A stretch of 64,000 nt of DNA. Source: Janibacter terrae NBRC 107853. GTDB taxonomy: Bacteria; Actinomycetota; Actinomycetes; Actinomycetales; Dermatophilaceae. A model generated the notes under the pieces. It saw only the letters and a list, made by a program, of their open reading frames with translations. It had not been told where the DNA came from and made no database searches. Both the position numbers and the translations under genes were made by a program. The DNA is taken from the NCBI RefSeq assembly GCF_001591405.1, contig NZ_BCUV01000007.1, positions 124,001 to 188,000 on the forward strand. Reading direction: 5' to 3'. This document shows, in pieces, positions 42,583 through 51,586 of the stretch (its first letter is position 1; every line of letters begins with the position of its first letter).

Positions 42583-45784
<3,202 letters not shown>

Positions 45785-45803
45785 CTAGATACAACCACAT
45801 GGT

Positions 45804-45809
45804 TACGTT
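45804..45809 (+). promoter_or_regulatory. -10 box of a leaderless thiD transcript
   Basis: TACGTT ends 6 bases before the thiD ATG, and GTGACT lies 17 bases upstream as a possible -35. The thiD mRNA is thus predicted to be leaderless and outside the control of the divergent riboswitch. Confidence 0.55.
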
Positions 45810-45815
45810 GGCGGC

Positions 45816-46658
45816 ATGGCACCCCCTCTCCCCCGACCGCCGGTGGCCCTGACGATCGCAGGGTCGGACCCCTCGGGAGGTGCGGGCGTCCAGGCGGACC
45901 TCAAGACCTTCAGCGCGCTCGGGGCGTACGGCACGAGCGTGCTCACGGCCCTCACGGCGCAGTCCACGCGTGGCGTCACGAGGGTTCACGACGTGCCGGT
46001 CGCGGTGGTCCGCGCGCAGGTCGAGACGCTCGTGGCCGACGTCCGCATCGACGTCGTGAAGGTCGGGATGCTGGCCTCGCGGGCGCTCGTCGAGACGGTG
46101 CACGAGCTCCTCTCCCACGGTGCCCTGGGCGACGTGCCCGTCGTGCTCGACCCGGTCATGGTGTCCACCTCCGGGTCGCGTCTGCTCGCCGAGGGCGCCG
46201 TCGCCGCCGTGCGCGAGCTGCTCCCCCGGGCCGACGTCATCACGCCCAACGTCCCGGAGGCCGCGGTCCTGCTCGACGAGCCGGTCGCTGGGTCACCGGA
46301 CGAGCTCGCGGACCAGGCCCGGCGCCTGCGCGAGCTCGGCGCACGCAGGGTGCTGGCCAAGGGAGGGCACCTCGCCGGCGACGCGTCCGTCGACATCTGG
46401 CTCGACGTCTCGGACCCGTTGCCGCTCAAGGCTCCTCGCATCACGACGGGGGCGACGCACGGTACCGGTTGCACGCTGAGCTCGGCGATCGCCGCCCTTC
46501 GTCCCCGACACGACGAGTGGCTGCCCGCGGTCATCGAGGCCAAGGCGTGGCTCACCGAGGCACTGCGTCACGGTGAGGCCCTCGACATCGGCCGGGGGCC
46601 GGGGCCGGTGCACCACTTCCACGAGCACGAGCGGTGGCGGGCGCCGGTCGGCGGGTGA
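45816..46658 (+). CDS. thiD: Hydroxymethylpyrimidine / phosphomethylpyrimidine kinase
   Basis: A 280-residue ribokinase-family enzyme that phosphorylates HMP and HMP phosphate. Family phrases are [65 protein letters not shown] and the catalytic [14 protein letters not shown]. It diverges from thiC and completes the pyrimidine branch with it. No riboswitch precedes it; its start is at the end of its own promoter. Confidence 0.95.
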
Positions 46659-46679
46659 GCCGCGTCCCCGGGGCCGGCC

Positions 46680-47705
46680 CTACCGCTCGCGGCGCCCGGC
46701 CCGCACCCAGCTGACCGCCATGGCCCCTGCCGCGAGCAGCCACGCCGTGACGGCGACCCACAGCCACGCCGCCCCGATGGCCTCGACGAGCGGCAGGGCG
46801 TCGGCCCGCCCGAGGTACATCCCGGCGACCGCGTACATGCCGAGCGGGAAGACGATGCTCCACCACGTGGACTCGTACCGCAGGGGGATGCGGTGCACGA
46901 GGTGGCGCCAGACGCCGACCGCGAAGAGCACGGGGATCAGCCACGTCGCCCAGGCCCAGCACAGGACGACGAGACCGGCGATGAGCCCCGAGGTCGCGTC
47001 CACCATCGGCGTCGAGTCCATCTCGACGATCTTGGCGCCCGCGACGACGGTGATCGCGACCGCACCCATCGAGACCCAGTACGGGGGGTTGAGGTCCTGC
47101 GGGCTGAGCGGGTAGAGCACGAGCCGCAGCGCGACGAAGACGGCACAGGCGGCGTAGAGGACGACCCCGACAGACCACGCGAGGACCGCGAGGACGGCGA
47201 GCGCCTGCCTCCCGGAGGTGACGACGGGCTCGAGCCCCGCGGCGGCCGCGGCGACCGACTGGCTGCCGACGACCCAGATGAACCAGGTGCCGTTGGCCTC
47301 CGTGAGCACGGGTCGCTCCGCCCGGGAGAGGACGGCGGCCCACGGCACCCCGTAGCCGAGGAGGACCCAGGCGGTCGTGGCAGCGACGAGGAGGACGGCG
47401 CTCACGCCGGGCGCGATCTCGATGAGCCGGACGGCGAGCACGCCCGTCCCGGCCACGACCGTGAAGTAGCCGAAGGCGAGCCGCGGGTCGTGCAGGTCGG
47501 CGAGCGCCCGCTCGCGGTGGCCCACGAGTCGGACGACGAGCGCGAGCACCAGGGCGACCCACGCCGTCGCGGCGACGACGAGCAGGACGGTCGAAGGGAG
47601 GGCCCGCCCCTGCTGGTCCATCCCGACCGAGACGATGCCGGTCGCCATGACGAAGGCGAAGGCTCCGGGTGGCAGACCCGCGACCGCCGAGCGCACGTGG
47701 TCCAT
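46680..47705 (-). CDS. TDT family transporter (tellurite-resistance/dicarboxylate, SLAC1-like fold)
   Basis: A 341-residue membrane protein with about ten helices of the TehA/SLAC1/Mae1 superfamily. Clues are GAFAFVMATGIVSVG at the start of helix 1, FGYFTVVAGTGVLA, ANGTWFIWVVGSQSVA and STWWSIVFPLGMYAVAG. Relatives are anion channels or dicarboxylate and sulfite transporters; the substrate here is unknown. It starts 1 base after the DinB-family gene and is presumably cotranscribed with it. Confidence 0.82.
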   Translation of the reverse strand: MDHVRSAVAGLPPGAFAFVMATGIVSVGMDQQGRALPSTVLLVVAATAWVALVLALVVRLVGHRERALADLHDPRLAFGYFTVVAGTGVLAVRLIEIAPGVSAVLLVAATTAWVLLGYGVPWAAVLSRAERPVLTEANGTWFIWVVGSQSVAAAAAGLEPVVTSGRQALAVLAVLAWSVGVVLYAACAVFVALRLVLYPLSPQDLNPPYWVSMGAVAITVVAGAKIVEMDSTPMVDATSGLIAGLVVLCWAWATWLIPVLFAVGVWRHLVHRIPLRYESTWWSIVFPLGMYAVAGMYLGRADALPLVEAIGAAWLWVAVTAWLLAAGAMAVSWVRAGRRER

Positions 47706-47706
47706 G

Positions 47707-48243
47707 TCAGGCGTCGACGTCGTGCAGGTGGTGCTCGACGTCGTGCAGGAGGTAGCGGGCGAGCTGGGTGACGGTGAAGGGCAGGCCGTCTCCGCGCAGA
47801 CCCGTCCGCTCCCAGTCGTCGCCGCGCACCCGGGCCAGGACGGCAACGGTGCGCTGCGTCTCGTCGGCGATCTCGCGCTCGACCTGCGCCGGGTCTGCGG
47901 CCCAGAACCGACGACGGACCGCCTCGGCCTCCCCGTCGTAGTCGGCGAAGGGAGCGCCCTGCGTCGCGAGCATCGCCTCGACCCGCTCACGCAGGACCCG
48001 GACGAGGTCACGGGAGTGGCCGGCGTACTCGACGGTCGACCAGACGCCGGGGGCCGGTCGCTCGCCGGCGTCCGGGCGCTGCAGCGCCGTCGCGAAGCGG
48101 CGGGCAGCGGTCTGCAGACGCTCGCCGGTCAGCACGGGGTCGTGGGGGGCGTACCCGCACTCCCGGCACCCGTCGTCCACGACGAAGGTCCAGTCGCGGG
48201 CGTCGGGCGTGGCGGGAGGAGGCGTGGCGTCCATGACCGCCAT
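47707..48243 (-). CDS. DinB superfamily protein
   Basis: A 178-residue protein with the four-helix DinB/MDMPI fold pattern. RDWTFVVDDGCRECGYAP near the N-terminus, VWSTVEYAGHSRDLVRVLRERV in the middle and ARYLLHDVEHHLHDV at the C-terminus carry the three spaced histidines that bind a metal. Members include mycothiol-dependent enzymes, which fits a mycothiol producer. The start is ATG 48243 or 48234, neither with a strong ribosome site. It diverges from the LuxR gene. Confidence 0.8.
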   Translation of the reverse strand: MAVMDATPPPATPDARDWTFVVDDGCRECGYAPHDPVLTGERLQTAARRFATALQRPDAGERPAPGVWSTVEYAGHSRDLVRVLRERVEAMLATQGAPFADYDGEAEAVRRRFWAADPAQVEREIADETQRTVAVLARVRGDDWERTGLRGDGLPFTVTQLARYLLHDVEHHLHDVDA

Positions 48244-48295
48244 GGTGCCACTCGGGCTCTTTACTGAATGCTTAACCTCCACCACACTGGTGGGC

Positions 48296-49093
48296 GTGGC
48301 GAACGACCCCACCACCGAAACCCTCGCGACGGTGGTCGAGCTCGTGACCCGGGTGGGCAGTGCCTCGCAGGAGCCGGACCAGCGACTCGAGGTCATCGTC
48401 GACCTGCTGGCCGAGCGTCTGCACTCCGGCGTGGGCCTGATGGTGCACGGCGCGCCCGACGGCTACGCCGTGCGGGCGGTCGGTCGCGCCGCCACGCCGC
48501 ACGCGCGACAACGCATGGGCGAGGAGATGCGCATCACCGGCGCCCCCGACCCGCTCCTCGACCCCTTCCGCCAAGGGATCCTCGAGCCGACGACCGCGGC
48601 GCGCGCCCACGGCGGCCAGGAGACCTGGCAGGCGAGCGCCAAGTGCATCGGCAGCATCGAGATCTGGGGCATCAACCAGGTCGCAGCCCTGCCGGTGAGG
48701 GGTGGCGTGGAGTTCGTGGCCTTCCTCATCGGGCGGTACGGCGAGGACTACGACGACGACGACCTGGACCTGCTGCGGTCGGTCCAGCCGGTCGTCGCTG
48801 GTCTGGCGCAGCTCCTCGAGCCCGAGCACCTGGCCGGGCCGAACCTGCGGGTCGCCCGTCTCACGGCGCGCGAGGAGGAGGTGTTGCGGCTGCTTGCCGG
48901 CGGGCACAAGGCCAGCTCCATCGCGCGCCGGATCGGGTGCTCCCAGCGGACGGTGCACCGGCACCTGTCCAACGTGTACGGCAAGCTCGACGTGGGCGAC
49001 CGGCTGACGGCGGTGACCCGGGCCCAGCAGCTCGGCCTGCTTGCGGAGGTTCCGGTCTTCGAGCTCGAGCCCTCCGACGACGGGACGCGTTGA
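48296..49093 (+). CDS. LuxR-family transcriptional regulator with a GAF-like sensor part
   Basis: A 265-residue regulator. The first 190 residues look like a ligand-sensing domain (LEVIVDLLAERLHSGVGLMVHG, FVAFLIGRYGEDYDDDDLDLLRS, as in GAF proteins). The C-terminus has a LuxR/NarL helix-turn-helix (LTAREEEVLRLLAGGHKASSIARRIGCSQRTVHRHLSNVYGKL). There is no phosphoacceptor receiver domain. The GTG start at 48296 is a judgement (another GTG is at 48290). A 26-base perfect dyad lies just downstream, before the small exported-protein gene, and could be its operator. Confidence 0.82.
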   Translation: MANDPTTETLATVVELVTRVGSASQEPDQRLEVIVDLLAERLHSGVGLMVHGAPDGYAVRAVGRAATPHARQRMGEEMRITGAPDPLLDPFRQGILEPTTAARAHGGQETWQASAKCIGSIEIWGINQVAALPVRGGVEFVAFLIGRYGEDYDDDDLDLLRSVQPVVAGLAQLLEPEHLAGPNLRVARLTAREEEVLRLLAGGHKASSIARRIGCSQRTVHRHLSNVYGKLDVGDRLTAVTRAQQLGLLAEVPVFELEPSDDGTR

Positions 49094-49110
49094 CCGGCCG
49101 CCCACCCCCG

Positions 49111-49136
49111 CGCCATGGGTAGATGTACCCATGGCG
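49111..49136. promoter_or_regulatory. Perfect inverted repeat between the LuxR gene and the small exported-protein gene
   Basis: Two 11-base arms (CGCCATGGGTA at 49111-49121 and TACCCATGGCG at 49126-49136) flank the loop GATG. It starts 17 bases after the luxR-type stop. It may be a terminator, or an operator for the adjacent regulator controlling the gene at 49213. The AT-containing arms and lack of a G/C-only stem make an operator credible. Confidence 0.5.
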
Positions 49137-49212
49137 AGGCCCGGCGGCTCAGCGGTGTGCTTGGACCCGTGACCACCGGACGGGCCGGTGGCCCGGGGAG
49201 AGGAACCATCCG

Positions 49213-49338
49213 ATGTCACGCACCATCCTGCGCAGAACCCTGGCCGTCACGGCCGGCGCGGCCGCACTCACCTTCGGCGTCGCCAGCACGGCCAGCGCCC
49301 ACCACTGCTACAAGGTCGACTGGAACGAGAAGGCCTAG
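49213..49338 (+). CDS. Small exported protein, probably the 5' half of a split gene
   Basis: A 41-residue frame: a textbook signal peptide (SRTILRRTLAVTAGAAALTF...ASTASA) with cleavage after ASA leaves only the 12-residue mature peptide HHCYKVDWNEKA. The ATG has GGAGAGGAA upstream. Its TAG is followed after one base by the ATG of another small frame. The mature part is too short for a normal secreted protein, and its start looks like the N-terminus of longer actinobacterial exported proteins. A frameshift or internal deletion that split one gene is likely; a genuine secreted peptide is the alternative. Confidence 0.55.
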   Translation: MSRTILRRTLAVTAGAAALTFGVASTASAHHCYKVDWNEKA

Positions 49339-49339
49339 G

Positions 49340-49519
49340 ATGAGCGAGACCGGCACCACCACGGAGCCGCTCATCCACAGCAAGGCGACCGCCGGGGGCG
49401 GCGCCGCCCACCAGGGCAAGACCGTCAAGCCCTTCGCCTACCTCGGGGACGCCGACTTCGCGATCCTCGAGGAGGGCCTCGGGATGGCGATCGAGCAGTG
49501 CATGGCCGACCAGGCCTGA
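49340..49519 (+). CDS. Small protein following the exported peptide, possible 3' half of a split gene
   Basis: A 59-residue frame, MSETGTTTEPLIHSKATAGGG..., ending PFAYLGDADFAILEEGLGMAIEQCMADQA. It has no signal peptide of its own. It starts 1 base after the upstream TAG (TAGGATG), so translation would depend on termination-reinitiation. The sequence looks like a protein C-terminus, which supports the idea that it was once fused to the preceding signal-peptide frame. No function is recognised. Confidence 0.5.
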   Translation: MSETGTTTEPLIHSKATAGGGAAHQGKTVKPFAYLGDADFAILEEGLGMAIEQCMADQA

Positions 49520-49546
49520 TCGCGTCTGGTGGTCGGGCGGCCGGGA

Positions 49547-50119
49547 TCAGTCCTCGACGAGGGGGACGAACCGGTAGCGACCGTGACGGGTCACGGTCGC
49601 GCCGCCCGGCCCCCGCACCACGCGCAGCATCTCGCCGGCGACGGGGATGACCATCACCCCTCCGGGACCCAGCTGCTCGACCAGCGCGTCGGGCAGCACG
49701 TCGGGCTCGGCGGAGACGAGCACACGGTCGAAGGGGGCCCGGTCCGGGGCTCCCAGGACGCCGGTCTCGGCCTGCTCGACGCGCACCCAGGCTCGGGGGT
49801 CGAGGGCGAGCGCGTCCCGGGCCGCTGCCACCAGCTGCGGGATGCGCTCGACGCCCAGGACGCTGCCGGAGGGGCCGACGAGCTCGCCGAGGATCGCCGC
49901 CGTCCAGCCCGAGCCGCTGCCCACGTCCAGGACGTTCTGGCCCGGGCGCACGTCGAGCAGGCGCAGCATCGCCAGGACGGTGCGGGGCTGGGAGTTGGTC
50001 TGCTGGTGCCCGATGGCCACGCGGGCGTCGAGGTGGGCCGAGCGTCGACGTGCCGGGGGGAGGAACCGCTCACGCGGACAGGCGCGCATCGCGGCCTCGA
50101 CCCGGTCCGGACGCTGCAT
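49547..50119 (-). CDS. Protein-L-isoaspartate O-methyltransferase-like methyltransferase
   Basis: A 190-residue SAM-dependent methyltransferase of the PIMT family, which initiates repair of isoaspartyl residues. The start ACPRERFLPPARRRSAHLDARVAIGHQQTNSQPRTVLAML includes the family's substrate loop, and VLDVGSGSGWTAAILGELVG is the SAM-binding motif I. The length is slightly short for the family (about 200-210). The ATG at 50119 has AGGAGG 8 bases upstream. It lies downstream of, and in line with, the SRPBCC gene. Confidence 0.82.
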   Translation of the reverse strand: MQRPDRVEAAMRACPRERFLPPARRRSAHLDARVAIGHQQTNSQPRTVLAMLRLLDVRPGQNVLDVGSGSGWTAAILGELVGPSGSVLGVERIPQLVAAARDALALDPRAWVRVEQAETGVLGAPDRAPFDRVLVSAEPDVLPDALVEQLGPGGVMVIPVAGEMLRVVRGPGGATVTRHGRYRFVPLVED

Positions 50120-50151
50120 CCTGTGACCTCCTGACGCCGACCCGGAGACCG

Positions 50152-50595
50152 TCAGGCGAAGAGCGCGGCGAGCCGGTCGAGGGAGACCTGCAGCCGCTCG
50201 CTCGTCGTGCGACGGGCGCGGGCGAGGCGCCGCTCGTCGGTCAGCTCGCTCCAGTCGTAGGTGTGGGTGACCTCGGTGCGGCCGTCGTCGGTCGGGGTGA
50301 GCTCCCAGCGCCACAGGTGGCCGGGAGGCACGCTGCCCGGCTCGGCGGGTCGCCAGGCGATCCGCCGCCCCTCCTCGAACTCGACGACGTGGTTGTCCCG
50401 CCGCATGCCGTCCTTGGTGAGGACCATGACGAAGACGTCACCGACGGCCCGGACGCGCTGCCCCGACGGCGCCTCGGCGAGGTTGTCGTTGCCGTCCCAC
50501 GCGGGTTGGCGGGCCGGGTCGGCGATCTGCTCGAAGACCGCCTCCGGGGGCGCGTCGACGACGGCGGTGGCACTGACGACCTTGGTCTCGTCCAT
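50152..50595 (-). CDS. SRPBCC (START-like) family protein
   Basis: A 147-residue helix-grip protein of the polyketide cyclase/SRPBCC superfamily: ATAVVDAPPEAVFEQIADPARQPAWDGN at the N-terminus, RIAWRPAEPGSVPPGHLWRWELTPTDDGRTEVTHTYDWSE in the middle. It probably binds a small hydrophobic ligand; no specific function can be given. I chose ATG 50595 because the TAGGGT box ends 7 bases upstream; a GTG at 50604 is inside the promoter. Confidence 0.85.
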   Translation of the reverse strand: MDETKVVSATAVVDAPPEAVFEQIADPARQPAWDGNDNLAEAPSGQRVRAVGDVFVMVLTKDGMRRDNHVVEFEEGRRIAWRPAEPGSVPPGHLWRWELTPTDDGRTEVTHTYDWSELTDERRLARARRTTSERLQVSLDRLAALFA

Positions 50596-50602
50596 GGCAC
50601 CC

Positions 50603-50608
50603 ACCCTA
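50603..50608 (-). promoter_or_regulatory. -10 box of a leaderless SRPBCC transcript
   Basis: TAGGGT on the minus strand ends 7 bases before the ATG at 50595. No ribosome-binding site is present. Confidence 0.5.
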
Positions 50609-50617
50609 GGGCGGACG

Positions 50618-51541
50618 TCAGTCGGTGACCGCGATGACGATCTTGCCGTTGGCGGAGCCGCTGCGGCTCAGGGCGAAGGCGTCGGCCACCTGCTCGAGGG
50701 CGAAGGAGCGGTCGATCTCGACCGCGAGCCGCCCGGCGGCGACCTCCTGCAGCAGCTGTGCCAGACGCTCGCCGTCGGGCCGCACCCACACCCACCGGCC
50801 GCCGTGCTCCTCGACGGTGGGGTCGGCGACCGAGGCGAGGCGGCCCCCTTCGCGCAGCACGTCGAGGGAGACGTCGAGGACCCCGCCCACGAGGTCGGCG
50901 ACGGCGTCGACCCCGTCCGGGGCCACCTGCGTGAGGCGCTCGTGCAGCCCCTCCCCGTAGGCCACCGGCGTCACCCCGATCGCCGTCAGGCGGTCGTGGT
51001 TGGCGGGCGACGCGGTGCCCAGCACGGTCGCGCCGGCGGCCACGGCCAGCTGCGAGGCCAGGTACCCGACGCCTCCGGACGCGGCGTGGACCAGGAGGGT
51101 GTCCCCCTTCGTCACGGCGAGCGTCTCGAGGACGCGCAGAGCGGTGAGCCCGGTGAGCGGCAGGGCGGCGGCGACGTCGTCGCCCACCTCGTCCGGGACG
51201 GCCGCGACGTCGTCGGCCATGACCGTCACGTACTCGGCGAAGGTCCCGGCGGAGACGATCTGCTTGCGCGCATAGGAAGCCACCCGGTCGCCCTCGGCGA
51301 GGTCCGGGGTGTCCGGGCCCACCGCGTCGACGACGCCGGCCACGTCCCACCCGGGGATGACGGGGAAGCTCGCGTCCATGAGGGCGTCGAGCCCGCCGGA
51401 CATGACCTTCCAGTCCACCGGGTTGACCGCGGCGCGGGTCACGCGGATGCGGACCTCACCGGGCCCGACCTTGGGGACGGGCAGGTCCGCCATCCGCAGC
51501 TCGTCGTCGTCGCCGTACCGGTCATACGTCATTGCTCGCAT
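50618..51541 (-). CDS. NADP-dependent quinone oxidoreductase-like zinc-free alcohol dehydrogenase family protein
   Basis: A 307-residue MDR-superfamily protein: MRAMTYDRYGDDDELRMADLPVPKVGPGEVRIRV, VNPVDWKVMSG, PGWDVAGVVDAVG and the Rossmann LLVHAASGGVGYLASQLA. It lacks the structural zinc cysteines, as expected for quinone oxidoreductases. It likely reduces quinones or enones with NADPH. ATG 51541 gives the family-standard N-terminus; ATG 51532 is an alternative. Confidence 0.87.
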   Translation of the reverse strand: MRAMTYDRYGDDDELRMADLPVPKVGPGEVRIRVTRAAVNPVDWKVMSGGLDALMDASFPVIPGWDVAGVVDAVGPDTPDLAEGDRVASYARKQIVSAGTFAEYVTVMADDVAAVPDEVGDDVAAALPLTGLTALRVLETLAVTKGDTLLVHAASGGVGYLASQLAVAAGATVLGTASPANHDRLTAIGVTPVAYGEGLHERLTQVAPDGVDAVADLVGGVLDVSLDVLREGGRLASVADPTVEEHGGRWVWVRPDGERLAQLLQEVAAGRLAVEIDRSFALEQVADAFALSRSGSANGKIVIAVTD

Positions 51542-51586
51542 GGTGGGGTCAACCGCCCGATGGGGCGTGGGCATTCCGGACGGGGC

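Follow-up and report, generated by a model that had tools for sequence, protein, structure and literature searches.

In singleton fs-genes, as described by Antonov et al. (2013; PMC3711429), two adjacent open reading frames (ORFs) correspond to the two termini of a gene that relatives carry intact, with the break found in a single genome only. The locus analysed here, from Janibacter terrae, is alike in both respects. The lesion itself is different: singleton fs-genes are broken by one or two bases, whereas more than 100 nt are missing here and the arrangement TAG-G-ATG has been left by chance. A literature search for a Janibacter LuxR regulator with a secreted protein found no paper, and a second search, on pseudogenes in Janibacter genomes, returned none on this gene among the matches listed.

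The window, which is the whole 64,000-nt stretch of DNA analysed, belongs to the genome designated G000. The 5' fragment (49213..49338, + strand) encodes 41 residues (MSRTILRRTLAVTAGAAALTFGVASTASAHHCYKVDWNEKA, then stop) and comprises a predicted signal peptide and the first 12 mature residues, HHCYKVDWNEKA. The signal peptide was judged by eye from an Arg pair, a hydrophobic core and ASA before HH, and the gene's likely ribosome binding site, GGAGAGGA at 49197..49204 (+ strand), was also picked out by eye. The 3' fragment (49340..49519, + strand) encodes 59 residues (MSETGTTTEPLIHSKATAGGGAAHQGKTVKPFAYLGDADFAILEEGLGMAIEQCMADQA, then stop) and constitutes the C-terminal end of the same gene, out of frame. 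Direct reading of the spacing gives TAG at 49336-49338, G at 49339 and ATG from 49340, so that coordinates and sequence agree with the first-pass annotation, which described a signal-peptide ORF with 12 mature residues and a second ORF one base after its stop. Its description of two separate small ORFs is correct as to their presence and placement but not as to their nature, since they are really pieces of one gene. The sequence GAGAAGG is located 6 nt before the second ATG (49340) and makes translation of the C fragment possible. Downstream of the 3' fragment, a PCMT-type methyltransferase gene occupies the opposite strand from 49547 on. A perfect 10-4-10 palindrome, GCGACCGTGACGGGTCACGGTCGC, is found at 49577-49600, within the 3' end of the methyltransferase gene and just past the 3' fragment.

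Comparison with other genomes reveals what the two ORFs are. Each piece was searched against 58 genomes, and a profile of the intact protein was searched against 16 Janibacter genomes (E <= 0.001). The fused version that the first-pass annotation had suggested looking for in relatives was found: 6 of the 16 genomes (G007, G008, G010, G011, G012 and G013) carry an intact single gene, and in each of these the matches to the N and C pieces fall in one open frame of 142-147 codons. Across the six genomes, the N piece is 65-78% identical to the 5' end of the intact gene (E 2.4e-16 to 1.0e-12), and the C piece is 67-84% identical to its 3' end (E 1.6e-29 to 5.9e-20). Chance does not explain the two frames: each matches the corresponding end of the intact gene in other Janibacter genomes, and both are homologous to one and the same gene. 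In G000 the profile matches only the two pieces themselves, with no second copy, and in the remaining 15 Janibacter genomes it detects no split arrangement. Beyond the six whole copies, these hold a 3' remnant in G006 and no match in eight genomes, among them G015, which is 79% complete. A broader search, over 396 genomes of the order that included only part of the genus, added five weak hits from outside Janibacter, and none of these is split. Of the two alternatives offered in the first-pass annotation, this distribution supports the one in which a deletion has interrupted an ancestral secreted protein, with the gene whole in 6 of 16 genomes and split in 0 of the 15 others.

The deletion junction, TAGG at 49336..49339 (+ strand), stands where the relatives have 126 or 138 nt in the alignment. 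Between the aligned parts there are 126 nt in G007, G008, G011 and G013 and 138 nt in G010 and G012, compared with 4 nt in the window. The missing length is 122 or 134 nt, which is 2 mod 3 in all six comparisons, and the 5' piece is ended by a premature TAG stop at 49336. The second ATG is the internal Met codon of the motif HWM[AE]ETG and is preceded by TGG in all six intact copies, which accounts for the GG of the junction. The TA on its other side was perhaps derived from a Tyr codon, although this source is uncertain: four of the six relatives have TAT or TAC directly after Ala41, but G007 and G013, which ThiC places nearest, have GCC there. Of the 61 alignment columns that are invariant among the six intact proteins, 13 lie in the deleted part, including W52, C76, H86 and W87.

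This is, with high confidence, a decayed gene, in which a small exported-protein gene of this Janibacter lineage lost its middle through an internal deletion that broke the frame. In the proposed course of events, the left side of the break ends in TA after Ala41, and the right side starts with GG, left over from the TGG (Trp) codon in front of the internal Met. Once joined, the two sides read TAG-G-ATG, by which the 5' piece gains a stop and the 3' piece seems to start at what is an internal Met. The regulator and the palindrome remain, but the product would be no more than a 12-residue exported tail, perhaps accompanied by a fragment in the cytoplasm. The product in this lineage is most likely dead, and we infer that it lacks function.

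We infer from one assembly of one genome that the organism itself carries the deletion. A scan for further records of the locus, which may omit close ones, returned two loci, both from other species. An assembly or consensus error, by which the gene would be whole in the organism and its middle missing from the assembly, is unlikely. The single assembly, in 11 contigs, leaves room for such an error, as do the imperfect direct repeats within the gene of the intact relative L033. Against this, no repeat pair in L033 joins the two ends of the break, nor does any in the intact relative L034, which has no direct repeat at all. Furthermore, the G000 assembly (3.58 Mb) scores 99.99% for completeness and 0.04 for contamination, and the break is 173 kb into a contig of 1.37 Mb. 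As a general matter, assembly errors would seldom take the form of a clean gap this large.

Very improbable is a true bicistron, in which the 12-residue exported peptide would be a signal and the 3' ORF its coupled partner, both under the LuxR protein. Translational coupling of adjacent ORFs is known (PMC3711429). The spacing TAG-G-ATG could permit reinitiation, GAGAAGG precedes the second ATG, and a LuxR-type gene and a palindrome adjoin. Yet the six whole copies do not share GAGAAGG and have GAGAACG, CCCAACG, GCCAAGG, GACAAGG (twice) and GAGCGTG in its place; the second start is an internal Met codon in all six; and the C piece has no export signal. The first-pass proposal of a bicistron with a 12-residue secreted peptide also runs counter to the other 15 Janibacter genomes, which comprise no split copy, six whole ones, one remnant and eight with nothing. 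Equally improbable is that HHCYKVDWNEKA still acts as a secreted peptide with its function in the N-terminal His-His-Cys stretch; if it did, the regulator, the palindrome and the signal peptide would be kept by selection. Recoding, by frameshifting or skipping, to join the two frames into one protein is hardly conceivable even though both frames are open and conserved, because the gene is one frame in relatives and the middle residues are missing from the DNA, which makes the relatives' protein unobtainable by this route.

The state of the two pieces bears on the age of the proposed deletion. Only 2 of the 48 retained invariant positions are changed in G000 (H3R and V105A), and the first nine residues of HHCYKVDWNEKA are identical in all seven genomes. 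Pairwise dN/dS (NG86), which compares pairs and not branches, is 0.43-0.83 for the C piece in comparisons with G000, as against 0.37-0.75 in four intact pairs, over few codons. The corresponding values for the N piece are 0.19-0.50 with G000 and 0.15-0.19 among intact pairs, over 41 codons. Well-conserved pieces, dN/dS values with no clear sign of relaxed selection and the possible translation of the C fragment count against decay, but they fit a recent deletion.

Loss is not confined to G000. In G006, the LuxR-type gene and most of the secreted-protein gene are gone, leaving a 34-residue 3' remnant (L048, L075; G006:C13:228512-228625) between thiD and dinB-type genes, while ThiC places this genome beside the intact G008 (IQ-TREE bootstrap 100). 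G009 has neither gene, and its ThiC stands beside that of the intact G010 (IQ-TREE bootstrap 100; FastTree 0.803). G000 itself groups on ThiC with the intact G007 and G013, at 0.934 with FastTree on proteins and at 74 with IQ-TREE on nucleotides. These trees represent one gene in 10 of the 16 genomes, the other six having no ThiC match, and their G011 row derives from a shortened locus that starts too early and is missing some C-terminal residues. Given the ThiC placements and the losses in G006 and G009, the split is best read as a derived state, with the pair lost more than once in the group. In the LuxR tree, G000 is not grouped with G007 and G013 but placed elsewhere with weak support (0.631), and has no supported partner within the genus. 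The C piece is closest to G010 (84%), as against 69% to G007. Together with the LuxR tree, this makes exchange between species possible.

Gene order around the pair varies as well. The position of the pair within a thiD - transporter - dinB - PCMT block differs between genomes (L076-L081 compared with 43931-51574 in the window): the LuxR-type gene adjoins thiD in G008, G010, G011 and G012, and adjoins dinB in G000, G007 and G013. These differing positions indicate that the block has been rearranged.

The regulator in the window is a LuxR-type protein of 265 aa with a C-terminal GerE HTH (Pfam GerE, E=2.2e-14), encoded at about 48296..49093 on the + strand. Its frame is intact, and the GTG start is our choice. 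Between this gene and the 5' fragment lies a 24-nt palindrome, GCCATGGGTA-GATG-TACCCATGGC (49112..49135, no strand assigned), a perfect 10-4-10 repeat and predicted LuxR operator; it is one of four perfect 10-4-10 palindromes in the window. At E <= 1e-20, the LuxR-type gene is present in seven of the 16 Janibacter genomes. These are the very genomes with a whole or split secreted-protein gene, and in the six besides G000 it is likewise directly upstream of that gene. The form CATGGGTA-N4-TACCCATG is present at the locus with 0-1 mismatch in six of the seven genomes with the gene pair and is degenerate in G008. A second element, GT[GC]TGCT, is kept in all seven about 35 nt downstream of the palindrome centre. 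No promoter was found by a scan for the sigma-70 consensus.

Judged from sequence, the 24-nt palindrome is a probable operator to which the LuxR-type protein would bind, and the intact gene probably encodes a LuxR-controlled secreted protein that would be switched via this site. The link between LuxR protein and operator drawn in the first-pass annotation is supported as a property of the intact gene, given the co-occurrence in 7 of 16 genomes and the palindrome in 6 of 7. One genome with a whole secreted-protein gene, G007, has its LuxR gene out of frame in the HTH part, with 5 nt lost relative to the matched frames; this may be decay or a sequencing error.

Outside the genus, a LuxR match (E <= 1e-15) is found in 13 other genomes of the family. 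In the 11 of these loci that were read, all but L099 and L104, there was neither an AHxC-type frame within 1.5 kb downstream nor a similar palindrome near the gene end. Beyond Janibacter, an association of this LuxR type with an AHxC protein was looked for and not found in these 11 loci. Within the family, genus g47 has LuxR-type regulators that resemble those of Janibacter at 39-50% identity across most of their length (10 genomes), but differ from them in having no AHxC frame within 1.5 kb downstream and no palindrome (9 of 10 read).

Similar sites occur elsewhere in these genomes. The only other mismatch-free CATGGGTA-N4-TACCCATG site in G000 is G000:C6:748196-748215 (L057, L084), which lies 82 nt upstream of an ORF for an unrelated secreted protein (197 aa, no Pfam match). 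This ORF is possibly a second target of the LuxR-type protein. Its relative in G006, which has no LuxR-type gene, is 78% identical and has one half-site left. Related palindromes of the form CATGGGGA-N4-TCCCCATG are found at G000:C6:437657 and in G002, G008, G009, G010, G012 and G015. Allowing up to 2 mismatches from CATGGGTA-N4-TACCCATG, the 16 genomes contain 32 sites of all kinds, compared with 3 for the reversed control.

The intact protein is 142-147 aa long and consists of a signal peptide and a mature part that begins at HHCYKVDWN, with three invariant cysteines. Searches with two of the proteins gave no Pfam match; a sub-threshold one to GAF_2 (E 0.02) was taken as chance. There was no accepted match in NCBIfam or PHROGs, and a PDB sequence search returned nothing convincing (best E 0.064). 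A single-sequence structure prediction for the intact protein of L033 had a mean pLDDT of 42.7 and was set aside.

There is a distant resemblance to secreted proteins of other Micrococcales with the motif AHEC[YF]..RSD[KQ]GN (L036-L039), which have a signal peptide, H-E-C-[YF] in place of the H-H-C-Y of Janibacter, and then W..L. Profile comparison between the two gives 97.9% probability over 98 columns, the second profile consisting of 3 sequences only. The match has 26% identity and falls largely in the signal peptide and first mature residues, whereas the C-terminal halves are unlike. A LuxR-type HTH match lies upstream of the gene in one of these four (L037). By analogy with a histidine brace, the N-terminal His of the mature Janibacter protein might be a metal ligand.

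The phenomenon is an ordinary one, with its closest parallel in bacterial pseudogenes formed by out-of-frame deletion. It illustrates that a chance junction can mimic a bicistron when the join creates a stop that stands one base ahead of an internal Met codon. Of further use is the combination of a LuxR-type regulator with a secreted protein that has no name as yet, which could be studied in the six other Janibacter genomes, five of them with the palindrome.
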